The notes under the pieces were generated by a model. The model worked only from the letters and a program-made list of their open reading frames with translations. It was not told the origin of the DNA and searched no databases. This document shows positions 43,560 through 57,597 of a DNA stretch of 64,000 nt, piece after piece (positions within the stretch are counted from its first letter, which is position 1; every line of letters begins with the position of its first letter). The stretch is from NCBI RefSeq assembly GCF_024347495.1, contig NZ_AP025490.1, positions 1,488,001 to 1,552,000 of the forward strand, in the 5' to 3' direction. Origin of the DNA: Vibrio gallaecicus (GTDB lineage Bacteria; Pseudomonadota; Gammaproteobacteria; Enterobacterales; Vibrionaceae). The position numbers and the translations under genes are program-made.

Positions 43560-44438
43560 TTATATTTTTGGAAGTTCTTGTAATAAAAAGTCGATCAAAA
43601 GTTGGCTGGCATGACTTAGAGCTTTTCGCTGTGGGTACAGCAACCATGCTTCTTCAGTTTTGACTTCTTTTTGAGGAAATAGATTAATTAAGGTTCCATC
43701 TTTGAGTTCTTGTCGAACGAGAAGCTCAGGTAATAGTGAAATACCACGATGACGGCAGGTTGCACCTTTTACAAAACCGATACTATCACTAACGACTTTA
43801 GGTTCCACTTTGATGACTTGATCAAGTATTTCCCATTGCTTATCAATGTCTCCACTAGGCCAGCGAAAACAGATAAATTTATGGCTGACGAGTTCATTTA
43901 GATTAGCCGGTGATCCGAACTGTTCGAGGTAAGTTGGACTAGCAACGAATATACGCTGAAGGTCCATCACTTTACGAGCGACTACGTTTGTATCGTGTAA
44001 ACGACCGCCATGCATCGCCAAATCCAGCCCTTGTCGATACATATCAAGGAATCCGTTGTTTATGCTCCTAATATCGAGTTCTATCTCTGGATATAGATCT
44101 TGGAACTTAAACAGTGAGGCTTGAATAATGTCACCTGTTTCTGGCAATAGACCAATTTTTACTCGCCCGTGGGGGATTTCTAATAGATTAGAAGCAACTC
44201 GATTGGCTTTTTCTAAAGCGGTAAGCGCTTTGGTTAACTCGTGATAATAAAGCTCGCCTGATTTAGTTAACGACAGGCTGCGAGTCGTTCTAAAAAACAA
44301 TTGAATACTGAGAGCTTTTTCTAAATCATTAATTCGACGGCTGACGTTGGCTCTTGGTAAATCCAGTGCGTTTGCTGCTGCAGTGAAATTGCCTAGCTCA
44401 ACGACAGTCGTAAACAGTTTTAAGTCTTCAATTTTCAT
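43560..44438 (-). CDS. LysR-family transcriptional regulator
   Basis: The product has 292 residues. The N-terminal winged helix-turn-helix reads FTTVVELGNFTAAANALDLPRANVSRRINDLEKAL (about 9-43), of the type found in the large AaeR/DmlR-like group that regulates transporters. The effector domain covers about 90-290. Unlike most LysR genes it points the same way as its presumed target, the efflux operon 99 bp downstream. It follows sypR after only 50 bp with no strong terminator, so read-through from the polysaccharide operon is possible. Confidence 0.88.
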   Translation of the reverse strand: MKIEDLKLFTTVVELGNFTAAANALDLPRANVSRRINDLEKALSIQLFFRTTRSLSLTKSGELYYHELTKALTALEKANRVASNLLEIPHGRVKIGLLPETGDIIQASLFKFQDLYPEIELDIRSINNGFLDMYRQGLDLAMHGGRLHDTNVVARKVMDLQRIFVASPTYLEQFGSPANLNELVSHKFICFRWPSGDIDKQWEILDQVIKVEPKVVSDSIGFVKGATCRHRGISLLPELLVRQELKDGTLINLFPQKEVKTEEAWLLYPQRKALSHASQLLIDFLLQELPKI

Positions 44439-44488: not shown

Positions 44489-45151
44489 TTAGCGACCTCG
44501 ACCATCAACCATAACAACAATTGTTTTAGTGATAATGCTTAAGTCCGTTTTTATCCACGATTTAACAGAGCATAGGCTGAGCGCATAGCTGTGGTCAAAA
44601 CCTACTTTGCGTCTTACATCCTCAATACAGGTGTCATAGCCTTGGTTTACTTGAGCTAAGCCGGTGATACCTGGAAGTACGCCATAAGTTCTATCTGCAA
44701 AGTATGGAATTTCAGTCTCTAATTTATTGTAGAAAGTAGGGCGTTCGGGTCTTGGACCAATAAGTGACATCTCTCCTTTTAGTACGTTAAACAGTTGTGG
44801 TAACTCATCGAGTCTTGTTTTTCTTAGGAAGTTGCCAATGGGGGTGATTCTTGGGTCATTTTTACTGGCCCACACAGCACCTGAACGTGTTTCAGCATCT
44901 TGGTACATGCTACGAAACTTCATTATTTCAAACAACGCCATTTTATCGGGCGTCGATTTTCCTACTCTTAGTTGGCGATAAAAAACAGGACCTTTTGAAG
45001 AAACTGCAATCGCAAATGCAATAATAGGGAAGAGAGGTAGAAAAATCACAAGTGCGACTAGAGCGCCCAGAAAGTCAAAAGTACGTTTAGCGTGCGAAAT
45101 TTTATTCTGGTACAGGCTATTTTTGTTTAGGTAAAGATTAGTGTTCATCAT
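44489..45151 (-). CDS. sypR: Initiating sugar (undecaprenyl-phosphate) transferase, SypR-like
   Basis: The product has 220 residues: the catalytic domain of a bacterial sugar transferase with one N-terminal membrane segment (ALVALVIFLPLFPIIAFAIAV) and no large WcaJ-type N-terminal domain. Key features are KFRSM, RKTRLDELPQLFNVLKGEMS and GPRPERP, then PGITGLAQV. It should move the first sugar phosphate onto undecaprenyl phosphate, starting the repeat unit. Last gene of the cluster, as sypR is in V. fischeri; the symbol rests on family plus order. Confidence 0.8.
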   Translation of the reverse strand: MMNTNLYLNKNSLYQNKISHAKRTFDFLGALVALVIFLPLFPIIAFAIAVSSKGPVFYRQLRVGKSTPDKMALFEIMKFRSMYQDAETRSGAVWASKNDPRITPIGNFLRKTRLDELPQLFNVLKGEMSLIGPRPERPTFYNKLETEIPYFADRTYGVLPGITGLAQVNQGYDTCIEDVRRKVGFDHSYALSLCSVKSWIKTDLSIITKTIVVMVDGRGR

Positions 45152-45160
45152 AATAAGTCC

Positions 45161-46348
45161 TTAACGACTGACGCGTGCCCAATGTGAATTTTCAAAGCCC
45201 AGCAGGTAACGAAGCCCGCCAACAAAGTTTGCATAGTGCCCAACCACTAAATAAGAAATCAGTGAAATTGGCTTGGCACTTAAGTGCTGTGGAAGTAAGT
45301 AACCAATAATTCCTATGCTATAAATCATTATTTGTAGGTAGAACAGAATATCGAATACAAGGTGGTGACTTAATAATGTCGAGGTGACGAAGCAGATGAT
45401 CATTAAGTAAGGAGTCAATAATCTTAACCCTTTCCCTGAAAAGAAAGCGAAAGCCGTACCTCCAAACTTTGGATTGAATAAACCAAATAACTCAATAACT
45501 TGTTGCATGTTACCAGCTGAGATTCTTAGCCTTCTTTTGAAGTCATTACTTCTGTTGGTTTCTTCCAGTTCTAGCGCAATCATCTTAGGCTCGTAGTCGG
45601 CTAGATAACCTTTTCTTACTATCTGCATTGGCAGAATGAAATCATCATTGATGGTGTTGGTTGGCAATTGGTCGAACAATTCTGTTCTAAACAAATAGAA
45701 TGCGCCATGTGCTCCTAAGCTTGAACCCAGCGATGCTTCTTGTTCTTTGACTGCGGTTTGGTAAGCCCAGTAAGTACTCTCACCTTGGTTTCCTGTTGGA
45801 TACATACGGTAAGTTGCGTTTACCACACCTACACGGTTATTTGAAAAGTGGGCACTGGCAATTAATAAAGAATCCAGCGAGATCAAAGCTGATACATCGC
45901 TAAGTGCTGTGATATCGCTGTCTATCTGGCAAATTTCTTCGTTAACAAGAGCAACTTTTCCGCGATTTTTACTGTGGTTATGAATTTCAAAATGGACATC
46001 ACAGCAAATAGCTTCTTGGATTGTCATTTCAGCCACTTGTACTGTGTTATCTGTACAGCCATCACAGGCAATAATGACTCTCAATTTTTCGTTTGGGTAA
46101 TCTAATGAAGCGAGATTTCTTATTTTCTCTGCTATCCACTGCTCTTCATTATAAGCCGGTACTAGGATAGTGATACTTGGTAGAACTCTATCACTTCTCA
46201 TTTTCTTGTAGCTTCTGGTGCTTTCCTTTACGCCGTCGCTTGGGTGTTTTTTTGAATACCAACGCAGCAATAAAGGGTAGCCGAGGTGATGATAAATAAT
46301 GAACACACCAGAAAAAATGCACGTCACCACTAATAGAATATCAATCAT
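45161..46348 (-). CDS. sypQ: Family 2 glycosyltransferase, SypQ-like
   Basis: The product has 395 residues. It has an N-terminal membrane helix (about 3-20), a GT-A domain starting SITILVPAYNEEQWIAEK with the nucleotide-sugar motif DGCTDNT, a DVSA motif and a KRRLRISAGN stretch corresponding to the QxxRW region, then membrane helices from about 310. This is the layout of processive or membrane-bound GT2 enzymes. It overlaps sypP by 4 bases and is 9 bp from sypR. Confidence 0.78.
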   Translation of the reverse strand: MIDILLVVTCIFSGVFIIYHHLGYPLLLRWYSKKHPSDGVKESTRSYKKMRSDRVLPSITILVPAYNEEQWIAEKIRNLASLDYPNEKLRVIIACDGCTDNTVQVAEMTIQEAICCDVHFEIHNHSKNRGKVALVNEEICQIDSDITALSDVSALISLDSLLIASAHFSNNRVGVVNATYRMYPTGNQGESTYWAYQTAVKEQEASLGSSLGAHGAFYLFRTELFDQLPTNTINDDFILPMQIVRKGYLADYEPKMIALELEETNRSNDFKRRLRISAGNMQQVIELFGLFNPKFGGTAFAFFSGKGLRLLTPYLMIICFVTSTLLSHHLVFDILFYLQIMIYSIGIIGYLLPQHLSAKPISLISYLVVGHYANFVGGLRYLLGFENSHWARVSR

Positions 46349-47457
46349 GCGTAAGCTCCATTTGCTATGTCATTGTATGACTCAACCATGTTACGAACGT
46401 CGAAGTTCTTTAAAATGAACTGTCTTGGTCCTTGGGAAAGGTCATTGTTATTTTTGTTATCAGCTATTGCCTGTAACAAAGCATGTGACAAGTGAGGGAT
46501 ATGGTTTCTTTTAACGAGATGACCAGTCTTAGGACAAAGTGTTTCATTTACCGCTCCAACGTTCATCGCGACAGTAGGAATATTGCAAGCTTGAGCTTCG
46601 AGCGTTGATAAAGGTAGCCCTTCATGGCGTGATGGCAGACAAAATACATCTAATGAGCGGTAGAAGTTCACCATATCATCCACTAAGTCTAGAAAGATGA
46701 CTCGTTCAGAAACTTGCAGTGTTTTGGCTAGCTGTTCTAATTCCTCTTTTTGCGAACCTTGCCCTGCAAAAACAGCAACAGCATTGGCTGGAATAAGAGT
46801 TAACGCTTTGATTAATTGATCCTGCCCTTTAACAGTCTCGAGACGACCAGCACAGCCAATGATGGTTTTGTCGTGTGGGAGTGAAAAGACATCTCGAGCG
46901 GCTTCTTTTGAACTAGGCTTAAATTTTTGGCAATCAATACCATTTTTGATGGTAGTGATGTTTGCATAAGAGAAAGTCGATTTCAGTTGGTTGTAAACAC
47001 AAGTTGCATCAGCAACTAGGGTCGGTTGCGCAGCTTTAAGTGCCATATCTTGAATTCTACGACGCTTAGTATTATTCAAATGCCATGCATCATGTTCTGT
47101 ATGAATGCGAGCAGGAACCCCCGTGATTTTTGCAGCATATCCAGCGTACAAAAGAGGACCAATGTGGTGAGTATGGACAACATCGGGTTTTACACCTTGA
47201 AAGGCCTTCATAAGAGTAAGAATGAGGTTAAGCTGGACTCCTGGCGCTTTATCTAAAAATACAAGCTGTGATTGGAAAGGCTCTAGCTTTGTCCAATTCT
47301 TTAGTGCTTGTTCGCGAGTGCCTTCAAGGCTGACAATAAGAACTTGGTCTTCTTTCTTTGCAAACTGAAGTAAATCGAGTGTTAACGTTTCCAAACCACC
47401 TGGTGCCAGGTGTTGAACTACGTGTATGATCTTCTTTCCTTTAGGCTGTGTTTTCAT
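46345..47457 (-). CDS. sypP: Family 4 glycosyltransferase, SypP-like
   Basis: The product has 370 residues, a GT-B fold retaining transferase. The N-domain begins KIIHVVQHLAPGGLETLTLDLL; the donor-binding C-domain has IIGCAGRLETVKGQDQLIKAL and the E-x7-E motif in SRHEGLPLSTLEAQACNIPTVA. It starts a sub-operon (sypP-Q-R) with its own sigma-54-type promoter 62-77 bp upstream, as sypP does in V. fischeri. Sugar specificity unknown. Confidence 0.8.
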   Translation of the reverse strand: MKTQPKGKKIIHVVQHLAPGGLETLTLDLLQFAKKEDQVLIVSLEGTREQALKNWTKLEPFQSQLVFLDKAPGVQLNLILTLMKAFQGVKPDVVHTHHIGPLLYAGYAAKITGVPARIHTEHDAWHLNNTKRRRIQDMALKAAQPTLVADATCVYNQLKSTFSYANITTIKNGIDCQKFKPSSKEAARDVFSLPHDKTIIGCAGRLETVKGQDQLIKALTLIPANAVAVFAGQGSQKEELEQLAKTLQVSERVIFLDLVDDMVNFYRSLDVFCLPSRHEGLPLSTLEAQACNIPTVAMNVGAVNETLCPKTGHLVKRNHIPHLSHALLQAIADNKNNNDLSQGPRQFILKNFDVRNMVESYNDIANGAYA

Positions 47458-47518
47458 AAGCTAAGTCCCTTTAAGTATCAATAATTAGATTTTATTTTTG
47501 AACTCTTCATTAAGGTTA

Positions 47519-47534
47519 AGCATGGACCGTGCCA
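47519..47534 (-). promoter_or_regulatory. Sigma-54-type promoter of sypP
   Basis: The minus strand reads TGGCACG-GTCC-ATGCT, with GG and GC at the invariant 10-base spacing and six of seven bases of the -24 element perfect. The start would be near 47508, 51 bases before sypP. No clear SypG-enhancer sequence was found in the 190 bp upstream; the best site, at 47743-47757, has two mismatches and lies over 200 bp away. The rest of the 271-bp gap holds no gene. Confidence 0.72.
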
Positions 47535-47728
47535 GTTATTTTATTGTTTAATATCAATTGTTTATGTTTAAATTTTTTGTTTTGTCATTTTCGTTTTAAT
47601 TTAAGAATCAAAATGGAATCAACCTGTGTTCTTTTCGCAACTGTGAGTTTCAATAGTGGAGCAATAAAAAGCGCCAGCTGTAAACTGACGCATAGTAAGG
47701 GGGTGTAGATAGGAAGCAGAATGTTTGG

Positions 47729-49153
47729 TTAATTCATTTTTGGTATAACAGTGAGCACTGGCACATTTAAAATATCCTCTATCTCACTTTTACGTTTAAT
47801 TGATGAGTCGAATAGTTCGAATATGATAGCTAGACCTGCGCCAAAGCCTAAGCCAGCCAATAGCCCTGCAATAACGAATAACACACTAGGTAAGTTGGAG
47901 CGGATGCTAGGTGTAAAAGGTAAGTCTATAATTTTTACTCGCTTGTTTTGTTCAAAAAGACTGAGTGATCCTGTTAATTGGGCCATTTCGTATCGTTCCA
48001 TTAATTCATCATAAAGTTGACGTTTAATCTGAACATCTCTCTGAAGTCGGTACATGACCTTCGCATTTTCCCCAAAGTTATTGGCTTTATTCTCTAATTC
48101 GAAAATCATTTTTTTCAGGCTTTTCGTTTCTTCTTTTAACGATTCATATCTCGCGCGAACTAATTGCAGGCTGTGAAGTTGTGTAACTAAAAGGGGCTGT
48201 GTATCGCTTAATTTTGTGAGTGTATTACTGCTGGCAATATCCCAAAGCTGATCACTATTCAGCGTTGGCTGTTTCATTTTGAGAATCGCAGTTCTCTCGT
48301 TTTCCAGTCTTTCCAGTTCTAACACTTTGGCTTGTACTGCGCTGTGTTGGTTTGTGTATTTAGCTTGAAGTAGCGTTAGATCGCTTCGGATGTCTATGAT
48401 TTGGTCTTCAAGTTTGCCTATTACAGGGTTAGTTTTAGATAGCTGCTGATCTATTGTACCTAGGCTTTTTTCAACACCCGCGAGTTCTGCTTGTTTCTCT
48501 GCTAAATTTTGTTTCAGAGATGCTAAGCGGTTTAAACTTTGGCTTTGAATCTCAGGTGTGGATTGAGCGTTGTTATTTTTGTAGTTAGCAAGTGCTTCTT
48601 CAGCGGCTTGCAGTTCTACCTGCCTTTTCTCTATATGTATGCTCAAAAAGTCACTTGAGTCTTGTATGGATGAACGTTCCGGCGCGAGTAGTTGTTCAAT
48701 GAAATGCTCACTGACGGATTGCAGTGTGTCTTTCATGCCTTCTGAAGTGTTCGAAGTTAGGCTAATTTTTAAAAAGTCTTTACCTAGCTGCGTTACGGAT
48801 AATCGGTTTGAAAGGTCACTGATGATTTCTTGCTGCTCTCTTGCTGACATATCTGAAGAAATAAGCTCAAGCTCAGTCGCGACGGAATAAAGCACATGTC
48901 GGCTATGTAATAGTGTTCTTAGCGCATTAATCCGGTCTTTTAGCATGGTCGAGACTGCAATGTCTTCCAAGAAAGGATTCATCTTTGCAGTTTCTTGGAT
49001 CAGCATGCTGGTATGAGCATCGTATTTAGGTGGGGCCATCTTACTCACTCCAAACCCTACAAAAGGTAAGATCATAATAGGAATAAGAATTACGTAACGC
49101 TGACGCCAAATAGCACCAAGAATGATTAATAAGCGAAGTTTTAGATTACTCAT
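47729..49153 (-). CDS. sypO: Polysaccharide chain-length regulator (Wzz/GumC-like), SypO-like
   Basis: I use the ATG at 49153 (474 residues), which overlaps the sypN stop as ATGA and has GGAG five bases upstream; the frame open from 49171 lacks such a site. Membrane helices lie at about 13-40 and near 425-450 (SVLFVIAGLLAGLGFGAGLAIIF). Between them is a Wzz domain and a long coiled coil (about 180-390). There is no cytoplasmic tyrosine-kinase domain. It should set polymer length together with SypL. Confidence 0.82.
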   Translation of the reverse strand: MSNLKLRLLIILGAIWRQRYVILIPIMILPFVGFGVSKMAPPKYDAHTSMLIQETAKMNPFLEDIAVSTMLKDRINALRTLLHSRHVLYSVATELELISSDMSAREQQEIISDLSNRLSVTQLGKDFLKISLTSNTSEGMKDTLQSVSEHFIEQLLAPERSSIQDSSDFLSIHIEKRQVELQAAEEALANYKNNNAQSTPEIQSQSLNRLASLKQNLAEKQAELAGVEKSLGTIDQQLSKTNPVIGKLEDQIIDIRSDLTLLQAKYTNQHSAVQAKVLELERLENERTAILKMKQPTLNSDQLWDIASSNTLTKLSDTQPLLVTQLHSLQLVRARYESLKEETKSLKKMIFELENKANNFGENAKVMYRLQRDVQIKRQLYDELMERYEMAQLTGSLSLFEQNKRVKIIDLPFTPSIRSNLPSVLFVIAGLLAGLGFGAGLAIIFELFDSSIKRKSEIEDILNVPVLTVIPKMN

Positions 49154-50268
49154 AATAACTCCAACATCCAATTGACAAATTTACCTCGTTGTTGCCAACT
49201 TTCTTGTTGAACAACATCACTAGGGATTAATTTTAAGTCTCTTTTCTTCTGTAGAGTATGTACCATTTCCTCAGCATTATTAACGGTTGAAACGTAACCT
49301 TGATAGGTATTCAACGCAGGAAACGGTGTTGAAATAATAGGTGTTTGAGCCGCTAAATATTCCATTAGCTTCAAAGGGCTACAAGCTCGTATCTGCTCAT
49401 TATCAACAAATGGAAGTAAGCTTACATCCCAGTGTTGTGAGTATCGCGGAAGTTCGGAATGTGCCTTCGGACCAAGATAGTAAACATTGTTATAGCTTGG
49501 TAACTGTAATGTAGGGAGTTCATTAGGACCGATGAATACAAAGTCCCACTCCGGCAGGTTTTTAGCTACCGTATCCAATAGATCATAATCAAGCCATTTG
49601 GATAAACTGCCGTAAAAGCCTGCAATTGGTCTGTGCCCAGTTGGGAGATCTAACGCTCTTGGCGTCGGGGTACTGAATAGCTCTAAATCTACACCGTGGG
49701 GCAAAAGTTGTGCTTTGCAGGCTGGGAATTTAGTCATTAGCTTATTACTGGCAGAAAAAATCAAATCAGCTTTATCAATTAAATCATGTTCATGATCTTT
49801 CACCGTGTCATGGTCGACCCCTGCAAGAGCATCAAAGTCATCTCCACAGTAGTACACAACAGATGACTCCCCAAGGTGTCCACATAGGTCAACAGCCGTA
49901 GGCAGTGACGTCCAGAGTATCGGGTCGGTGATTCCAATCTGTTTCATCACAGGCTTTAGTTGGCTGAGCATAAGGTGTTTAGCGACTTGTCTAGTTAGCT
50001 GTGATTTTGGAGCCGGTATCGTACGCAAATTAATCACGGTAATGTTGGGGGCGTCTGTCGCATTTGACATGTTTTGTGCGTGTGCATTATTACGACCAAA
50101 CAGTTTGTTTAACGCACGTTTGATATCTTTAGCACATAGCTTAGGTTGTCTTAAGCCGATTGAATTAACCCACAGCACTTTATGAGTTTTCGATAGGTGA
50201 CGAACTAAATGTTGAGTGGAAGATGGTAAACCTCCGAAATCTTCACCAAATACGATTAAATCACGCAT
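49150..50268 (-). CDS. sypN: Glycosyltransferase (GT-B), SypN-like
   Basis: The product has 372 residues. It begins RDLIVFGEDFGGLPSSTQHL, contains a mid-protein GFYGSLSKWLDYDLL and WDFVFIGPNELP, and a donor-site stretch ACSPLKLMEYLAAQTPIISTPFPAL. This is the pattern of TuaH-like family 1/4 transferases. It overlaps sypM by 8 bases upstream and sypO by 4 bases downstream. Acceptor and sugar cannot be told. Confidence 0.78.
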   Translation of the reverse strand: MRDLIVFGEDFGGLPSSTQHLVRHLSKTHKVLWVNSIGLRQPKLCAKDIKRALNKLFGRNNAHAQNMSNATDAPNITVINLRTIPAPKSQLTRQVAKHLMLSQLKPVMKQIGITDPILWTSLPTAVDLCGHLGESSVVYYCGDDFDALAGVDHDTVKDHEHDLIDKADLIFSASNKLMTKFPACKAQLLPHGVDLELFSTPTPRALDLPTGHRPIAGFYGSLSKWLDYDLLDTVAKNLPEWDFVFIGPNELPTLQLPSYNNVYYLGPKAHSELPRYSQHWDVSLLPFVDNEQIRACSPLKLMEYLAAQTPIISTPFPALNTYQGYVSTVNNAEEMVHTLQKKRDLKLIPSDVVQQESWQQRGKFVNWMLELL

Positions 50269-51025
50269 CGTAACCTCCTAGTATCTCATCATTCAAAGTA
50301 GTTAAAGGTTGAGATGCAGGGATGCTTCCTATAACCCGGGCTGGGTTCCCTGCGGCAATCGAATAAGGTGGGATCGTTTTTGTTACAACGCTACCCGCAG
50401 CTACAACGGCGCCTTCACCGATTGTTACGCCCCCTTTAATGGTGACATTTGTGCCTATCCATACATCTTTACGAAGAATGATTTCACCAATTTGATTAGC
50501 ATCATCACCTTCTCCTAACGCTCTGCGTTTTGCATCTAGTGGGTGACCTGAGTACCCGAAGATAAAAGCACCACTTGCGATGCGAACATTGTCTTCAATG
50601 GTGACTTTATTACCAACCGCAATGGTCGATTGCCAGCCAATGTCCACATTGTTTCCCACTGAAAGTAGAGGTGCTTCACTCATGGTGCACCCTGAAAAAG
50701 TCGTGTGCCCTGAAATACGGCAGTCATCTCCAATGCGAATTTGTAATGGACCGCTAACAAATGGTAGACCACCGTACAAATATAGACGCTTACCACAGTG
50801 TGCGAGTCGCCCTTTAAATGCTGGTGTCCAATACAAAAAACGAGAACCTCCACTTACAATGCCAGTGATAAGCTGGTGGCCTTGATAAAGTGTCTGATTA
50901 ACGAATTGAGGGGTAGGAAGCTCAATGTTTCTAATACTTTTCAAAATGAAAAAGACATTTCTAATTTGAGAATTAGGATGAGATTTAAGCCAATGTTTGA
51001 ATTCATGAATAGATACTGACGTCAT
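50261..51025 (-). CDS. sypM: Hexapeptide-repeat acetyltransferase, SypM-like
   Basis: I choose the ATG at 51025 (254 residues): AGGAG lies 8 bases upstream, whereas the GTG at 51034 would overlap that same site. Left-handed beta-helix hexapeptide repeats occupy about 95-230 (IGDDCRISGHTTFSG, VGNNVDIGWQ, IGEGAVVAAGSVVTKTIPPYSIAAGNPARVIG). It should add acetyl or similar groups to the polysaccharide. It starts a sub-operon with its own promoter region and a hairpin over its ribosome-binding site. Confidence 0.82.
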   Translation of the reverse strand: MTSVSIHEFKHWLKSHPNSQIRNVFFILKSIRNIELPTPQFVNQTLYQGHQLITGIVSGGSRFLYWTPAFKGRLAHCGKRLYLYGGLPFVSGPLQIRIGDDCRISGHTTFSGCTMSEAPLLSVGNNVDIGWQSTIAVGNKVTIEDNVRIASGAFIFGYSGHPLDAKRRALGEGDDANQIGEIILRKDVWIGTNVTIKGGVTIGEGAVVAAGSVVTKTIPPYSIAAGNPARVIGSIPASQPLTTLNDEILGGYDA

Positions 51026-51032
51026 AATGGAC

Positions 51033-51057
51033 ACTCCTAGTTTTGTTATATAGGAGT
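51033..51057 (-). promoter_or_regulatory. Hairpin covering the sypM ribosome-binding site
   Basis: In the RNA, ACUCCUA (from 51057-51051) can pair with UAGGAGU (51039-51033) in a perfect 7-bp stem with an 11-nt loop. The 3' arm contains the AGGAG that serves the ATG at 51025. A transcript begun at the predicted sigma-54 start (51050) would lack the 5' arm. Confidence 0.6.
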
Positions 51058-51060
51058 TCT

Positions 51061-51076
51061 TTCACGTAATGTGCCA
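51061..51076 (-). promoter_or_regulatory. Candidate sigma-54-type promoter of sypM
   Basis: The minus strand reads TGGCACA-TTAC-GTGAA. The -24 element is exact, but the -12 element has GA where GC is expected. It is supported by position (25-50 bp before sypM), by similarity to the sypP promoter and its flanking sequence (AATAACTGGCAC in both), and by a SypG-like site 49 bp upstream. Confidence 0.5.
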
Positions 51077-51111
51077 GTTATTTAATTATTACTTTTCAAT
51101 TGGTTATGGTT

Positions 51112-52491
51112 TCAATCTTGTAATTTCTCATTCTGACAAGCATTTTGGCATATATGAGAGACGCATACGGTGAGCGCTGCAAGGATATAAATGGGCCAAT
51201 TAAACCCCTGTGTTAAGAAAGTTCCTGAGACTATGGTTCCAATTAAACCTGCATAAACCGCATTGGCAGAAGAAATGAGATTAGCGTCGTGGGTGAGCTG
51301 TGATTGCGCTAAAGTTTGCTGTGTTTTACGAGCCGTGCGAATTAAAGAAGCAATGAGAATGATGAAAACTAACAGTCCTACAAAACCTGTTTCGGCTAAG
51401 ACACCAAACCATGTACTGTGTACCGCGTGATTTAAGCCGTCCCAATGCGGGCTGTAAAAGTAGTAATTCGAATAAAAATTATTAAGTCCAACACCTGTTA
51501 GAGGGTTATCTACCGCCATTTTAAAAGCTGCCTCCCAAGCATATAAGCGACCCATGGCAGAGGCATCAACACCAGCTTCTGCAGCTCCTCCTGAAGCTCT
51601 ATCGGATATTCCAGCGGCAAAATAAAGCACTATCGCACCAACGACGGAAAGAGTAAGGAGTAGGGTTTTAGACCGTATATATTTAATGGCAAATAATCCA
51701 AATACTGCCATGGAGCCTAGCAGCCCGCCACGGCTTTGTGTTGCTATGATAGCCGCAAGCAAAACAAGACAAATAACACCGCATAAGATCCGTAATAACA
51801 CAGATATACCTCGAGTGGTGGTATGACTTAAGGCAAAGGCAAGGGGGAACATCAGTACCAAGGCTAAATCGTTTGGGTCGCCTAACATTGAACCAAGATC
51901 TCGCCCAATAGTCACTCGCGTTCCTTCCACTAACCCAATCCCATTCATTGAATTGAATAGCGCAATACAACCTATCAGTAGCCCTGACAATATAATGATG
52001 AGTGAAGTTCGTCCTAAGTTTTCAGTACTATTTACAAGCCAAACAATGGCAAGAGTCATCACTATGATTTTCCAATAAATGCCTTTGAATTGTTCAATGG
52101 CAATAGGGCGATTCGAAGCAAAGATGATCCCTATAAAAACTAGCCCCCAAAATATGGCTAACCAAGTGAGCGAGTGGTGCCAATACATTTTTAATTCTTT
52201 ACTAATTAACGCATGCCAAAGTAAAGCAGAAAGAGCCCCAAGAGAGAGTAATAGCGGGATTTTTAACGAGTACAAAACAGGGATCGCTTCGTGAATTCGA
52301 AAGAATGAAAAAACGACAAACATGATCACTAACCAGAATGTTTTGTTTATGACAAACAAAGCACCGAGAGGCAGAAACGAAATAACAATAGCGACCAGTG
52401 GGTGAGGGACAAGGTACCAAACCACGCCAATGGCTAAGCATAGGAGTGAAATTGAAATGATAGATGTGAGACGATTAGTTTGCGTTGTCAT
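51112..52491 (-). CDS. sypL: O-antigen ligase/polymerase-type membrane protein, SypL-like
   Basis: The product has 459 residues with about 10-12 hydrophobic helices. A large periplasmic loop near 290-350 contains AMGRLYAWEAAFKMAVDNPLTGVGLNNF, the Wzy_C/WaaL-type motif with GxGxxNF and a following WFGVLAETG. It is probably the polymerase that joins repeat units on the periplasmic side. Start and stop abut sypK (one-base overlap). Confidence 0.82.
   Translation of the reverse strand: MTTQTNRLTSIISISLLCLAIGVVWYLVPHPLVAIVISFLPLGALFVINKTFWLVIMFVVFSFFRIHEAIPVLYSLKIPLLLSLGALSALLWHALISKELKMYWHHSLTWLAIFWGLVFIGIIFASNRPIAIEQFKGIYWKIIVMTLAIVWLVNSTENLGRTSLIIILSGLLIGCIALFNSMNGIGLVEGTRVTIGRDLGSMLGDPNDLALVLMFPLAFALSHTTTRGISVLLRILCGVICLVLLAAIIATQSRGGLLGSMAVFGLFAIKYIRSKTLLLTLSVVGAIVLYFAAGISDRASGGAAEAGVDASAMGRLYAWEAAFKMAVDNPLTGVGLNNFYSNYYFYSPHWDGLNHAVHSTWFGVLAETGFVGLLVFIILIASLIRTARKTQQTLAQSQLTHDANLISSANAVYAGLIGTIVSGTFLTQGFNWPIYILAALTVCVSHICQNACQNEKLQD
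51125..51139 (+). promoter_or_regulatory. SypG-enhancer-like site upstream of sypM
   Basis: TTCTCATTCTGACAA matches the SypG enhancer consensus I recall for V. fischeri (TTCTCANNNTGMDWN) at all but one defined position. It lies inside the 3' end of sypL, 49 bp upstream of the candidate -24 element. Confidence 0.5.
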
Positions 52492-54023
52492 TATCTATCA
52501 CTCCCACAATGACTGGATTCACCTGGTTGTAGAACATCATTATCTGCGCTTTTTGACATAACTTTATTGGTAACCCACTGATTCACTTCCTTTATTAACA
52601 GTGTAGGTAATAAGGAAAAAATTGGACTTAATAATGCGAGAATTGTGCAGAGCCATAGGTCTGAAACATGAAAAGCTATGTATAAAAAAATAAAGAGGCT
52701 GGTGATGTTTACGGTGAGAAGCTTTAATTGATATGGCATAAATAGCTGGCGCTGGCTAAGACAATAGATTAATACGGCTTTCAATGCTTGTGCTGCACCT
52801 AACGCAATGATTATTCCCCAAATGCCAAGCTCACTTCCTAACCCCCACATTAGACCAAGCCCAATAAGAGTAGAAGCAAAGCTGACTCTAAACTGTTGTT
52901 GGGTATTTTTATTATATAAAACGCCTATATTCACTAGTTCAGCTAACTCTTTAAACCAAGCGACTAAAAGTGTACCTACGAGTAATTGGGTAGAAATAAC
53001 ATAGGATTCAGGTAAAGCTAAGGAGATAAACACTTTCGCAGAGAAGGCGACAAAAATCGTTAAAGCGGTTAAGTATGAAATACCTAACTGAGTAACCAAA
53101 CACGTTTTTTTTATGCCATGTTCATTGATGTACTGAAAGCGTTTGGGCATCCACCACATCCCAAATGGCTGCATAAGAATACACATGGCGAAGGAAAATT
53201 TAATGGCAACTGCGTATAGACCAAGTGTGCTCAAATCGGTGCTATAGGCGAGGAAGAACCGTTCTGAACCATTAAGTCCAAACCCGACAAACGCGGTTAA
53301 CATCAACGGAACGCCATAGCTTAAATGATTTTTGAAGTGAGATCTAGAAGGTAGGCGCCATTCAAATCTATTTATGAAGTGTAATGACAGAAATTGAACG
53401 CCATAAGCAATTGCACCACAAGCAAGTATGTTGACCACTGTTGGTTGAGTACTCAGTACCACTACAATCAGCCCAACTTGTAATGTGGTGGATAAGACGC
53501 TGACCATTAAGAATGTTTTAGCTTTATCTTGCATTCGAAGCCACGCGGTGGATAACCCAAGAACACCTTCTAATGATGCGCAAACTAGAAGTAAATTTAA
53601 TTCGAATTGTGACACAAGGAAGTCAGTGGGAAATGGGGTTATATTAATGATCGAAAATAGCACTAGGCTTATTACAACAGCAATCATACAAGTTGAACTG
53701 TATAACTCACTCGCTCGTTTAAATTGATTGCTTGGTTGCTTTTCTGTTCCGACAAATCGATATAAGACTTCATGCATTGCTAGGGCGATCACAATACCAC
53801 TTGCGGCTCCAATGGAAGCGAGTAGATCGAGTTTACCGATTTGCTGAGGTTGTAAATAACTCGCCATAAGAGGCAGCATAATTAATGATATGCCTTTGTT
53901 TAAAACCAAGCCTAAACCATAAATGAGCATATTTGCCACAGGACTTTTTTTTTGGCTTATCGTGCTTTCTCTTAAGCTCATAGCGTTTGTTGTTGAGCTC
54001 GTAGCACTTGTTCTTAAGCTCAT
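52491..54023 (-). CDS. sypK: Oligosaccharide flippase (Wzx/MATE-like), SypK-like
   Basis: The product has 510 residues with 12-14 membrane helices beginning NMLIYGLGLVLNKGISLIMLP. This is the polysaccharide biosynthesis/MOP flippase pattern; it should move lipid-linked repeat units across the inner membrane for SypL. Its first 30 residues are atypical: they are encoded by a 21-bp repeat present three times, which supplies two in-frame ATGs (54023 and 53981), and then by a run of nine A. The ATG overlaps the sypJ stop. The true start could be either ATG. Confidence 0.82.
   Translation of the reverse strand: MSLRTSATSSTTNAMSLRESTISQKKSPVANMLIYGLGLVLNKGISLIMLPLMASYLQPQQIGKLDLLASIGAASGIVIALAMHEVLYRFVGTEKQPSNQFKRASELYSSTCMIAVVISLVLFSIINITPFPTDFLVSQFELNLLLVCASLEGVLGLSTAWLRMQDKAKTFLMVSVLSTTLQVGLIVVVLSTQPTVVNILACGAIAYGVQFLSLHFINRFEWRLPSRSHFKNHLSYGVPLMLTAFVGFGLNGSERFFLAYSTDLSTLGLYAVAIKFSFAMCILMQPFGMWWMPKRFQYINEHGIKKTCLVTQLGISYLTALTIFVAFSAKVFISLALPESYVISTQLLVGTLLVAWFKELAELVNIGVLYNKNTQQQFRVSFASTLIGLGLMWGLGSELGIWGIIIALGAAQALKAVLIYCLSQRQLFMPYQLKLLTVNITSLFIFLYIAFHVSDLWLCTILALLSPIFSLLPTLLIKEVNQWVTNKVMSKSADNDVLQPGESSHCGSDR
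53945..53953 (-). repeat. Poly-A9 tract near the start of sypK
   Basis: The coding strand has CC followed by nine A and GT, at codons 24-27 of sypK (Gln-Lys-Lys-Ser). A change of one base would put the flippase out of frame. It is the longest homopolymer inside a gene of this cluster that I noticed. Confidence 0.9.
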
Positions 54024-54025
54024 AG
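53963..54025 (-). repeat. Three 21-bp tandem repeats at the start of sypK
   Basis: On the minus strand three consecutive 21-bp units begin CTATGAGCTTAAGAACA, CTACGAGCTCAACAACA and CTATGAGCTTAAGAGAA. The first and third contain the in-frame ATG-AGC-TTA-AGA; in the second the ATG is ACG. The first unit also spans the sypJ stop. Confidence 0.88.
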
Positions 54026-55246
54026 TGCTTTCCCTTGTGGCTGATGCCCTAAAGTAGTCTTAACTTTAGGCGTTGAAAGGCTTTGGCAAATGTCGGCATA
54101 GCAGTATTCAGCGTGGTAGTCAGAAGCGATTTTTTTAGCTTCGATTGCAAGTGAAGCTCTTAGGGACGAGCTGTGTGTAAGCGTGTTCAAGGTGTCACGT
54201 AATGCCGTTGCACTACGAGGGGAGTACTTCATACAATTGATGCCATGAGTGAGCACTTTATCCCAGTAAGCCCCGTCTTCAGGTATGACGACACTTAACC
54301 CCGCAGCCAGTGCCTCAAGAATTGATAACCCAAAAGGTTCCTCAATACTTGTAGAGACAAATATGCCAGCTTGAGAACGAATTTGATCCAAATTTGATGG
54401 TGATTGGTAAAGTGAAACATTAGCCCAATTTTCGGGAAGAGAACTCACTCCAATCTCTGTACTTGTCGGGCGTATATAGCAGATATCAGTTTCGATAGAT
54501 TGTTTATTGTGTACCGGGTTAATGGCTTCTAACAGTACACCTAAACCTTTCCATTTTAATAACGAAGCCGCCCATAAAACTCTGGTTGATTGAAAGCTTG
54601 AAGTAGATGGCCAATTACAATGAGCAATTCCATTATTGAATGGCTGAAACTGCTCTTTATCCATTGAAAATCGAGCAAGGATTTGGTTCTGTATGGGGTC
54701 ATTTGTCAAAATGAAATAATGATAAATGGCATTTTCTATAGATTGCTCGCTACTTTTTAAGTAAAACACTTTGAAGGCTTTAGTCAAGCAGTAGCCGATA
54801 GAGCGAGATTGAGCGACAGGACCATGTATTAATTGAATGATTGAATACCCAGAGAAAAAACCAGCCAAGTAAATAGCCATATCAATACCAGGGCCAGAGG
54901 CCCCAACCGCATGATCAATACGTTTTACTCTTAACATAGTAACGAGAATGAAACTGAGTAAGCAAAGTTGTGCAAACCAGTAGCCTAAGCCTTGTGTTTT
55001 TGTCAGAAATTTCCATTTTGGCAGTGATAAAATTCGACAGTTCGAATGCTCTGATAATTTACTCCAAGAATCGGAATCAGCACTAAGAATTGTGAATTGA
55101 GTTTTGCTGTGATGACAAGATTGAAGCATTTCTGCGGTCGCTACTTTTGAGCCTCCAGCAAACGGAATTGGGTCATACACTAAGCTATGAACCTGAGTGT
55201 GGCTCAATGTTTTACTGAATGTAAACTTATGACTGGTTATGTTCAT
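54020..55246 (-). CDS. sypJ: Family 4 glycosyltransferase, SypJ-like
   Basis: The product has 408 residues. It is a GT-B transferase; the C-terminal domain contains TRVLWAASLLKWKGLGVLLEA and the E-x7-E motif in STSIEEPFGLSILEALAAGLSVVIPEDG. A central hydrophobic stretch near 88-110 (GYWFAQLCLLSFILVTML) may associate with the membrane. It lies between sypI (117-bp gap with a hexanucleotide repeat) and sypK (4-base overlap). Confidence 0.78.
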   Translation of the reverse strand: MNITSHKFTFSKTLSHTQVHSLVYDPIPFAGGSKVATAEMLQSCHHSKTQFTILSADSDSWSKLSEHSNCRILSLPKWKFLTKTQGLGYWFAQLCLLSFILVTMLRVKRIDHAVGASGPGIDMAIYLAGFFSGYSIIQLIHGPVAQSRSIGYCLTKAFKVFYLKSSEQSIENAIYHYFILTNDPIQNQILARFSMDKEQFQPFNNGIAHCNWPSTSSFQSTRVLWAASLLKWKGLGVLLEAINPVHNKQSIETDICYIRPTSTEIGVSSLPENWANVSLYQSPSNLDQIRSQAGIFVSTSIEEPFGLSILEALAAGLSVVIPEDGAYWDKVLTHGINCMKYSPRSATALRDTLNTLTHSSSLRASLAIEAKKIASDYHAEYCYADICQSLSTPKVKTTLGHQPQGKAL

Positions 55247-55297
55247 AGCCTTATCCTCATATTTGACGGTGTACTCATTTACTCAATGCTTTGTTAG

Positions 55298-55321
55298 TTT
55301 GTATTTGTATTTGTATTTGTA
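55298..55321. repeat. (TTTGTA)4 hexanucleotide repeat
   Basis: Four perfect copies of TTTGTA lie between the sypI and sypJ genes, 52-75 bp upstream of the sypJ start on its coding strand side. Confidence 0.93.
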
Positions 55322-55363
55322 TTAATTGCTTGCTGACATTGCATGTGTTTTACGGCAGATTAC

Positions 55364-56542
55364 CTACTTGAACGTCCAGCGTAATAATGGTTTTAAACCG
55401 TGAGCGATAGGCACACAGTGGCTGCTGGGTTCATGAGTGATACGGGCGTACAAAGCTTCCAAAGCATGAGTGTTAGCCTGAATGGTTAAATGAGTAGAGG
55501 CGAGTTGGTATAGGTTTTCAGCTAACCTAGACTGTAATGAGGTATTTGAAATTAGCGCTAGCATACAACTCGCCATATCAATGATTGGGTTCTTAGGTGA
55601 GTATAAAAGCCCAGTGACATCATTTTTGATGAATTCAGGTATGCCACCGACTCGTGGAGCTATCACTGGCAATTTCGCTAAGCCTGCTTCTGCAAGTACA
55701 AGGCCAAATGCTTCTTCTCTAGCACCACTGACAAAAGCGTCGACTCCTCCCACAAGCCAATTAGAGACATTATGTTGTTCTCCAACGAAATGAACCTTGT
55801 CTGCTAGATTTAGCTTTAACACGAGAGTTTCTAGATTTTTCCTTTCTTCTCCTTCACCTATAATCACAAGATGAAAGTTTCCAGCAGGAGAAATGTGCTG
55901 TAATGCTTGAATGATTAGATCGACACCTTTGCGAATAATCAATGATCCCACAGTGGCGAATACAAAAGCATTTTCTGGAATGTTTAGAGTCTGTCTTACA
56001 TTGATATATTGGTTGAAGTTCATACTGACACCGTTAGGTATCACAGATAATTTACTTTTAGGGTATCCATCGGATAGAAGTTCTTTGCTGATGGCATCAC
56101 TAACACAAACAATGTGAGGAGACATATGCAAGCCGAGTGTAAAGCGGTCTCTAAGTTGGTAATGGCTATGAAGTTGTGTCACAAGAGGAACTCGACAAAT
56201 ACGAGCCGCTAAACACATCCATTGGCAAGGTGCACCACTGTTTACATGAATTAAGTCGATACCATAGGATTTGATGTAATGGATAGCTTGTTTGACGAGA
56301 TGACACCAACTAACAGTATCAAAACGAGGAGATTGCCAACCTCCGATAAGTGGGAAGGCAGACAGTTCTGATGTGAGGTTTTGACCTTCATAGTGATGAA
56401 GCAAAGCCGGACAGTTTGTCCAAAGAAAGGGGGTATAGCGCTCTTTGTTGAGCGAGTCTATCAAGTTAATTAAGCAGACTTCACTGCCTCTGATCCAGTT
56501 ATCACCGTAATGAACATAAAGTATTCGTTTTGTATTTTTCAT
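55364..56542 (-). CDS. sypI: Family 4 glycosyltransferase, SypI-like
   Basis: The product has 392 residues, a GT-B transferase starting KRILYVHYGDNWIRGSEVCLINLI. The donor domain has FATVGSLIIRKGVDLIIQAL, VIIGEGEERKNLE and the E-x7-E motif in REEAFGLVLAEAGLAKLPVIAPRVGGIPEF. It is the first gene of this cluster, preceded by a strong sigma-54 promoter and SypG-like sites. In V. fischeri sypI is likewise promoter-proximal but is preceded by sypA-H, which are absent here. Confidence 0.8.
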   Translation of the reverse strand: MKNTKRILYVHYGDNWIRGSEVCLINLIDSLNKERYTPFLWTNCPALLHHYEGQNLTSELSAFPLIGGWQSPRFDTVSWCHLVKQAIHYIKSYGIDLIHVNSGAPCQWMCLAARICRVPLVTQLHSHYQLRDRFTLGLHMSPHIVCVSDAISKELLSDGYPKSKLSVIPNGVSMNFNQYINVRQTLNIPENAFVFATVGSLIIRKGVDLIIQALQHISPAGNFHLVIIGEGEERKNLETLVLKLNLADKVHFVGEQHNVSNWLVGGVDAFVSGAREEAFGLVLAEAGLAKLPVIAPRVGGIPEFIKNDVTGLLYSPKNPIIDMASCMLALISNTSLQSRLAENLYQLASTHLTIQANTHALEALYARITHEPSSHCVPIAHGLKPLLRWTFK

Positions 56543-56593
56543 TGTATTCCCTTACCAACGAGTGTTTTAGTTATTGGTTGTTAATATGGGAAT

Positions 56594-56609
56594 TGCAAAT
56601 CGAATGCCA
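56594..56609 (-). promoter_or_regulatory. Sigma-54 promoter of the syp-like operon (before sypI)
   Basis: The minus strand reads TGGCATT-CGAT-TTGCA, with both the -24 (TTGGCA) and -12 (TTTGCA) elements near consensus and exact spacing. The start would be near 56583, giving a leader of about 41 bases. Confidence 0.82.
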
Positions 56610-56666
56610 AAAGGGTGATTTATTAAGTGTTTGTTTTTAAATATTTATATTTGTTGGTGTTTACGT

Positions 56667-56693
56667 ATCTCAAATTGAGAATCAGTTTGAGTC
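56667..56693 (-). promoter_or_regulatory. Two adjacent SypG-enhancer-like sites before sypI
   Basis: The minus strand has TTCTCAATTTGAGAT (56681-56667), which fits the recalled SypG consensus TTCTCANNNTGMDWN at every defined position, and GACTCAAACTGATTC (56693-56679) with two mismatches. They lie 58-84 bp upstream of the -24 element, a usual distance for a sigma-54 enhancer. The first site is also palindromic (TCTCAAxTTGAGA). Confidence 0.65.
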
Positions 56694-56711
56694 TTTGTTA
56701 GAAAGGGAAGA

Positions 56712-56760
56712 CGCGGGCTGATTGAAGTGTTATTGATAAATCGAGTCACAATCAACCGCG
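56712..56760 (-). terminator. Possible terminator of the yidA-like gene
   Basis: CGCGGTTGATTG and CAATCAGCCCGCG (minus strand) pair imperfectly around a 24-nt loop, 22 bp after the yidA stop, followed by TCTTCCCTTTC. The tail is weak. Confidence 0.35.
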
Positions 56761-56781
56761 CCTTTTATGATAAAGCAGGAA

Positions 56782-57597
56782 CTAAGCCATAGGCTCTAAA
56801 ATGAATTTTTCAATTGCTCGGGCTACGCCATGTTCATTATTACCAGCAGTAATGTAATCAGCAATTGCTTTCGTTTCGTCCATTGCATTTTCCATTGCGA
56901 TACCTAAACCAGCATATTCAAGCATATGGTGGTCATTTTCTGCGTCGCCCATACAGATTACTTCTTCAGCTTTAATACCTAAATGATTCGCGATAGCTTC
57001 AATACCTACACCTTTATTTGACTTAGGGTTTAAGAACTCAAGGAAGAAAGGAGCGCTCTGGACTATCGTAAATTCTTTATGCAGTTCTGGTGACAACTTA
57101 CTGATGATTTCTGTTAGCTTCGATGGTTCCGCGACAATCATGGTTTTAATAATTTCGTGACTATCCTCTAAATCAGAAAAGTTGAATTCAGTGATATCTA
57201 AACCATTGATTGTTGCTTCGATTTGAGTGTATTCATTATTCTGAGGAGTAATGAGCCCGTGCTTTTTACTAAAGGCATGAACATAACCACCGAGTTCATT
57301 TGCTAGTTTTGCAATCGCTTTAGCGGCTTGACCATTACTGATCTTACTGTGAATAATTTCTTTCGTTGATACATTTTGTACCATTGATCCATTGTAGAAA
57401 AGTACGAAGTCATCAGTACCGTCTATTTCTAGTTCATCAAGCTTACTTTGCATTCCTTCTAAAGGTCGCCCCGAGGCTAATACGACTTTCACACCAGCTT
57501 TACGAGCTTTTGCAATCGCGTCTTTGTTTTCTTGAGAAATGACTTTATCACTATTTAATAGTGTGCCGTCCATATCTAGTGCTACTAACTTGTACAT
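56782..57597 (-). CDS. yidA: Cof-type HAD phosphatase, YidA-like
   Basis: The product has 271 residues, one more than E. coli YidA. The HAD nucleophile motif is D8-x-D10 (ALDMDGTLL), motif II is VVLASGRP, and motif IV reads ICMGDAENDHHML. The cap domain (about 85-190) is of type C2. Shared stretches with YidA include SAPFFLEFLNPKSNKG. YidA-like enzymes remove phosphate from sugar phosphates. It is divergent from queE and separated from sypI by a promoter region. Confidence 0.85.
   Translation of the reverse strand: MYKLVALDMDGTLLNSDKVISQENKDAIAKARKAGVKVVLASGRPLEGMQSKLDELEIDGTDDFVLFYNGSMVQNVSTKEIIHSKISNGQAAKAIAKLANELGGYVHAFSKKHGLITPQNNEYTQIEATINGLDITEFNFSDLEDSHEIIKTMIVAEPSKLTEIISKLSPELHKEFTIVQSAPFFLEFLNPKSNKGVGIEAIANHLGIKAEEVICMGDAENDHHMLEYAGLGIAMENAMDETKAIADYITAGNNEHGVARAIEKFILEPMA

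Follow-up and report, generated by a model that had tools for sequence, protein, structure and literature searches.

A 64,000-nucleotide stretch of the Vibrio gallaecicus chromosome (assembly GCF_024347495.1, contig NZ_AP025490.1, positions 1,488,001 to 1,552,000; hereafter the window) carries the distal half, sypI to sypR, of a syp (biofilm exopolysaccharide) locus whose proximal half lies elsewhere on the same chromosome. The locus was split by one inversion of ~182 kb, with one breakpoint separating sypH from sypI and the other yidA from a NUDIX gene. Promoter elements remain in front of both halves, and a sister species shares the split. The locus itself is known; its arrangement here is new. 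With a probability of roughly 88%, the window holds the distal half of a complete syp locus that was divided by a terminus-spanning inversion and in which the activator SypG and sigma-54 drive transcription of both halves, acting on sypI-R in trans.

In Aliivibrio (Vibrio) fischeri the locus presumably has sigma-54 promoters before sypA, sypI, sypM and sypP. It is described there as four operons (PMC8941931). The eps locus of V. diabolicus, scv of V. parahaemolyticus and rbd of V. vulnificus are reported as homologous loci (PMC5801674, PMC8941931, PMC4517449).

Gene content of the two halves

Ten intact open reading frames (ORFs) occupy positions 44489-56542 of the window on the minus strand in the order sypI to sypR. 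Their Pfam matches are, in that order, GT4, GT4, Polysacc_synt flippase, Wzy_C, hexapeptide transferase, GT1/GT4-like, Wzz, GT4, GT2 and Bac_transf. Both results agree with an earlier reading of the sequence alone (the sequence-only reading), which had listed ten minus-strand genes in this order, named them sypI-R and placed yidA and queE upstream of sypI. The names were borne out by tblastn against A. fischeri strain emors.2.1 (locus L212), in which the gene order is the same and identities are 39-64% over 83-100% of each protein, with E values of 1e-77 or lower. In the comparisons made, no closer kinship of the ten proteins to an unrelated capsule cluster was found. The upstream neighbors of sypI are indeed a yidA-like HAD hydrolase and a queE-like radical-SAM protein.

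The sequence-only reading had described the locus as reduced to sypI-R, and had proposed searching the genome for sypA-H and a SypG-like activator. It was correct that sypA-H are absent from this site, but the locus is not reduced. The search found sypA, B, C, D, F, G and H at G000:C1:1719-1727 kb (G000 being this genome), ~174 kb from sypI-R on the same chromosome. Loss of sypA-H was rejected as an explanation because the genes sit elsewhere in the genome. Two Poly_export proteins are encoded in the genome, one of them directly after the second of the two enhancer and promoter composites described below. Downstream of sypH are a NUDIX/PAP2 gene, a GNAT gene and an acyl-CoA-synthetase-like gene, called prpE by reading. 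The interval from sypD to sypG showed no sypE, a feature also reported for V. vulnificus and V. parahaemolyticus (PMC4517449).

SypG is 68% identical to A. fischeri SypG in a MAFFT alignment (64% by tblastn), and its 24-residue helix-turn-helix (HTH) stretch, GNVLNAAVLLELSPSTVYRKKQAW, differs from that of A. fischeri at one residue. Four other activators of the genome were compared with SypG. The nearest, a 466-amino-acid protein that is probably LuxO, is 51% identical.

An inversion across the chromosome terminus

Alignment with genome G012 was carried out for the 1429-1454, 1620-1638 and 1656-1680 kb stretches of that genome. It resolved into three segments, in reverse, forward and reverse orientation, with breaks at the two junctions. 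G012 1429-1447 kb corresponds to G000 1746-1727 kb, reversed; G012 1447-1454 and 1620-1638 kb correspond to G000 1545-1552 and 1702-1720 kb, forward; and G012 1656-1680 kb corresponds to G000 1537-1510 kb, reversed. This pattern is as expected from one inversion of ~182 kb at sypH|sypI and yidA|NUDIX.

The arrangement before the inversion is visible in relatives. All 19 stretches from non-sister relatives have sypH followed directly by sypI, or by sypL where sypI-K were unmatched. Among 80 named loci, sypH stands directly before sypI in 60, sypL in 16 and sypJ in 2, and these 78 intervals are all 0.9 kb or less; the remaining two loci are those of the sister species and of a 5.8-kb contig. At the other breakpoint, 18/19 non-sister relatives have a convergent pair of yidA and the NUDIX gene separated by 96-194 bp; in the nineteenth (G129) the separation is ~1.5 kb. 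The longest word common to the two new junction gaps has 9 bases, so no repeat accounts for the inversion within these gaps, to which the search was confined.

A dif-like site at G000:C1:1650666, with 2 mismatches to the dif motif used, lies within the inverted segment, and the inversion therefore spans the terminus, with arms of ~106 and ~76 kb around the site. In 16/16 relatives syp and yidA have a dif-like site between them (counted across the ends of the circular chromosome in G099). Inversions about the terminus are frequent in bacteria. The two syp clusters, on opposite sides of the dif-like site, do not form a single contiguous cluster. Contiguity is usual for syp and eps loci but is no arbiter of the orthology of their genes.

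The sister species, Vibrio sp. 99-70-13A1 (G123), has both new junctions, each inside one contig (yidA-sypI on L140, sypH-NUDIX on L133), and is the only other genome seen with the split. The inversion is thus most simply older than the divergence of the two species. All ten sypI-R genes have full-length matches in the sister at 81-95% identity.

The sequence-only reading had also suggested comparing the locus across related vibrios, and in that comparison the split was seen only in this species and a sister species. In a family sample of 296 genomes, SypO was found in 198 and SypC in 196 at the cut-offs used, and 150 of each were taken further. Both proteins were present in 144 genomes, on the same strand within 23 kb in 140. 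The four exceptions are this genome (opposite strands, 183 kb), the sister, and G205 and G073, in which the two genes are on different contigs; in G205 sypG to sypR are contiguous on L169. No description of a split at sypH|sypI was found in the portions searched of the literature on syp and Vibrio.

Three other features of these junctions and clusters were observed in relatives. The NUDIX/PAP2 match crosses one in-frame TAG in 16/20 relatives (L078-L093), though not in the sister. In G267 an insert between sypH and sypI (L122, 13340-17600) contains an integrase-core (rve) transposase-like ORF and an N_methyl pilin-like ORF. In another relative (L139, 783-4014) three ORFs between sypD and sypF, absent here, read as a betaine-type ABC transporter; such transporter genes are reported in the Splendidus clade (PMC5801674).

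Sigma-54 elements and SypG enhancers

The published SypG upstream activating sequence (UAS) is given as TTCTCANNNTGMDWN (PMC10162802). The sequence-only reading had noticed sigma-54-type sequences before the first, fifth and eighth genes and a full fit of the sypI site to the SypG enhancer consensus. Both observations hold: the sigma-54 element is exact at sypI and sypP and a -12 variant at sypM, and an exact UAS lies upstream of sypI (Table 1).

With at most one mismatch allowed, the sigma-54 pattern matched 66 times across the whole window where 54 matches were expected on average, which is not clearly above chance. Because the pattern alone is not rare, the case for these elements rests on position and conservation. 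For the conservation counts, exact TGGCAN7TGC was sought within 300 bp upstream of each gene in the 80 named loci. It precedes sypI in 58/61 and sypP in 72/76, and the control genes gave 3/59 (sypJ), 0/47 (sypK), 0/80 (sypN), 0/79 (sypO), 0/77 (sypQ) and 3/75 (sypR). Before sypL it occurs in 19/77, 16 of these 77 sypL genes directly following sypH. It precedes sypM in 0/71. The looser TGGCAN7TG was found before sypI in 57/61, sypM in 62/72 and sypP in 69/77, with controls of 2/59 (sypJ), 0/48 (sypK), 11/80 (sypN, the highest), 1/79 (sypO), 0/77 (sypQ) and 1/75 (sypR). At the 62 sypM sites TG is followed by A (42) or T (20), never by C.

The composite of an exact UAS and a sigma-54 element was then sought in the whole 5.13-Mb genome (two contigs). 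There are two matches only, one before sypA and one before sypI, and a reversed-pattern control gave 0. In the sister species the exact composite likewise occurs twice, before its own sypA and its own sypI. Retention of the composite in both species is suggestive of SypG control, short of proof.

Table 1. Positions of the two syp halves, their control elements, the breakpoints and adjoining genes. Positions are those of the window unless prefixed G000:C1.
Feature	Position	Strand	Remark
sypI, GT4 glycosyltransferase, first gene of detached half	55364..56542	-	48% to A. fischeri SypI
sypJ, GT4 glycosyltransferase	54020..55246	-	44% to A. fischeri SypJ
sypK, flippase (Wzx)	52491..54023	-	39% to A. 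fischeri SypK
sypL, polymerase (Wzy_C)	51112..52491	-	59% to A. fischeri SypL
sypM, hexapeptide acetyltransferase	50261..51034	-	54% to A. fischeri SypM
sypN, glycosyltransferase	49150..50268	-	60% to A. fischeri SypN
sypO, Wzz chain-length protein	47729..49171	-	57% to A. fischeri SypO
sypP, GT4 glycosyltransferase	46345..47457	-	48% to A. fischeri SypP
sypQ, GT2 glycosyltransferase	45161..46348	-	55% to A. fischeri SypQ
sypR, priming sugar transferase	44489..45151	-	64% to A. fischeri SypR
Sigma-54 element of sypI	56595..56609	-	TGGCATTCGATTTGC, exact
SypG UAS of sypI	56667..56681	-	exact match to TTCTCANNNTGMDWN
Sigma-54-like element of sypM	51062..51076	-	TGGCACATTACGTGA, deviates at -12 C
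SypG UAS-like sequence of sypM	51126..51139	-	1 mismatch
Sigma-54 element of sypP	47520..47534	-	TGGCACGGTCCATGC, exact
Stretch with window-side breakpoint (sypI side | yidA side)	56682..56781	.	located to the stretch, not to the base
Other breakpoint, outside the window	G000:C1:1726662-1726845		
STAS (sypA)	G000:C1:1719-1727 kb region		
OmpA-like (sypB)	G000:C1:1719-1727 kb region		
Wza-like, Poly_export/SLBB (sypC)	G000:C1:1719-1727 kb region		
Short kinase-like protein (sypD)	G000:C1:1719-1727 kb region		weak AAA_31 match
Hpt protein (sypF-like)	G000:C1:1719-1727 kb region		
Response-regulator/sigma-54 activator SypG	G000:C1:1719-1727 kb region		536 amino acids
GT4 (sypH)	G000:C1:1719-1727 kb region		
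yidA-like HAD hydrolase	56782..57597	-	adjoins sypI here owing to the inversion; faces the NUDIX/PAP2 gene in relatives
LysR-family regulator	43560..44438	-	also after sypR in 11/19 non-sister relatives' stretches

In the other eight of the 19 non-sister stretches, one stops short of sypR and seven have no match to the LysR gene in the few kb covered.

Control of the split locus and related arrangements

The inversion of ~182 kb across the chromosome-1 terminus moved sypA-H to the far side of dif, and sypI retained its own enhancer and sigma-54 promoter. Because sypI kept both, activation of the distal half in trans by SypG, which is encoded in the proximal half, is the most likely mode of control. 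SypG would be phosphorylated via the Hpt protein by some kinase and, with sigma-54, would activate the sypA operon and also sypI, and probably sypM and sypP. Judged from the sequence, SypG is predicted to bind and activate both promoters, and polysaccharide production to continue. The proximal half would supply the Wza-like exporter SypC and the kinase-like SypD, and the distal half most glycosyltransferases, the flippase, the polymerase, the Wzz protein and the priming transferase. In a Wzx/Wzy pathway neither half should suffice alone for export and assembly.

Several observations weigh against this reading. SypF is here an Hpt protein only and would not itself be the kinase that feeds SypG. 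The sypI site is the sole exact UAS among those of sypI, sypM and sypP, with 1 mismatch at sypM and 2 at best at sypP. An exact UAS is not general in the named loci either (sypI 37/61, sypM 44/71, sypP 13/76), and the exact composite is absent altogether from 9/20 relatives, so that an exact match is no requirement. Five relatives (G172, G277, G105, G099 and G085) have an exact composite outside syp. Together the last two results indicate that the motif is neither required for syp nor exclusive to it. An off-syp composite may mark a further SypG target. Three such stretches were examined (L227, 2987-3079; L228; L229); a pilin-like ORF lies downstream in 2/3, and none of the three matched an Rfam family.

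The sequence-only reading had left two explanations standing, a split locus with its regulator acting in trans or the takeover of control by a different enhancer-binding protein. The location of sypA-H, SypG included, ~174 kb away favors the split locus. Takeover, for example by LuxO with the SypG-type enhancer as a relic, is improbable. Candidates exist, since the genome has 13 strong matches to sigma-54 activators (E below 1e-39; 18 in all), and in V. fischeri the sites of LuxO and SypG at qrr1 are reported to overlap (PMC10162802). No positive support for such a change was obtained, however: SypG is intact with a near-identical HTH, and the composite is kept at sypI and sypA both here and in the sister. 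A marginally smaller chance is given to the view that the split put the locus out of action or uncoupled its halves, leaving sypI-R present but decaying and no longer co-expressed with sypA-H. The arrangement is derived, yet all ten genes are open and match at full length in the sister, and promoter and enhancer were retained in both species since their divergence. That the split is an error of assembly is scarcely credible. Although each species is represented by one genome, the sister assembly has the same two junctions, each within one contig, in sequence that has diverged (SypO 92%), and assembly error was rejected on the evidence of these junctions.

The preferred reading, a complete locus split by inversion under common SypG control, can be set beside known systems. 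With A. fischeri syp it shares the genes and their order, an orthologous SypG and the published enhancer motif. The V. gallaecicus locus differs in its break at sypH|sypI, where A. fischeri L212 runs unbroken from sypG to sypR, in the apparent lack of sypE and in a SypF with only the Hpt part. The V. diabolicus eps locus also differs, being contiguous from sypD to sypR (L197), with no sypM match there. The eps loci of V. breoganii and V. halioticoli resemble the present case in that syp is broken and the gene downstream of the break keeps its sigma-54 element (V. halioticoli L211), but their break is at sypO|sypP and not at sypH|sypI via a dif-spanning inversion. Detachment of sypPQR in these two species has been published (PMC5801674).

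Breaks of the latter kind were found in the family sample. Of 147 SypO-SypQ pairs, a single one has its genes on opposite strands, with 77 kb between them (Vibrio sp. CAU 1672, G083, where a single dif-like match was found, at one end of a different contig). The distance is 6.5-67.5 kb in four others (G127, G171, G281, G267) and 2.2-4.3 kb in a further six (G262, G034, G053, G169, G280, G179). The five large breaks are all at sypO|sypP. Each detached sypP keeps an exact TGGCAN7TGC, and a UAS with 1 mismatch is present at 4/5, with none in G083. These cases are not taken to show that breaks favor promoters. The gaps at sypO|sypP (median 246 bp) and sypH|sypI (172 bp) are among the longest, and gap length alone may account for where the breaks fall.

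A broader idea is put forward tentatively, as doubtful on present evidence. The syp locus may consist of separately SypG-driven modules, whose internal promoters would let it break repeatedly with control kept. Such breaks would be the one at sypH|sypI in this lineage and those at sypO|sypP in Vibrio sp. CAU 1672 and the halioticoli group. The sypH|sypI break might even be selected, because it assigns the export/regulatory and assembly halves to different replichores and so makes them a regulon in two places.

The split locus offers a natural experiment on the need for contiguity in a polysaccharide cluster. By one inversion a single locus would have become a two-place regulon, each half keeping the promoter it needs, and this provides a clean setting for measuring SypG control in trans. 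It also warns that a partial cluster should not be taken for a reduced one.

Syp-like loci were also seen in small genomes. Candidatus Photodesmus are luminous symbionts with reduced genomes. One of their loci (L187) has sypG to sypR in order; another (L214) has no sypM match and short or broken matches for sypC, G, K and Q. Two survey genomes of 1.0-1.1 Mb, G188 and G189, have SypC, SypO and SypQ.

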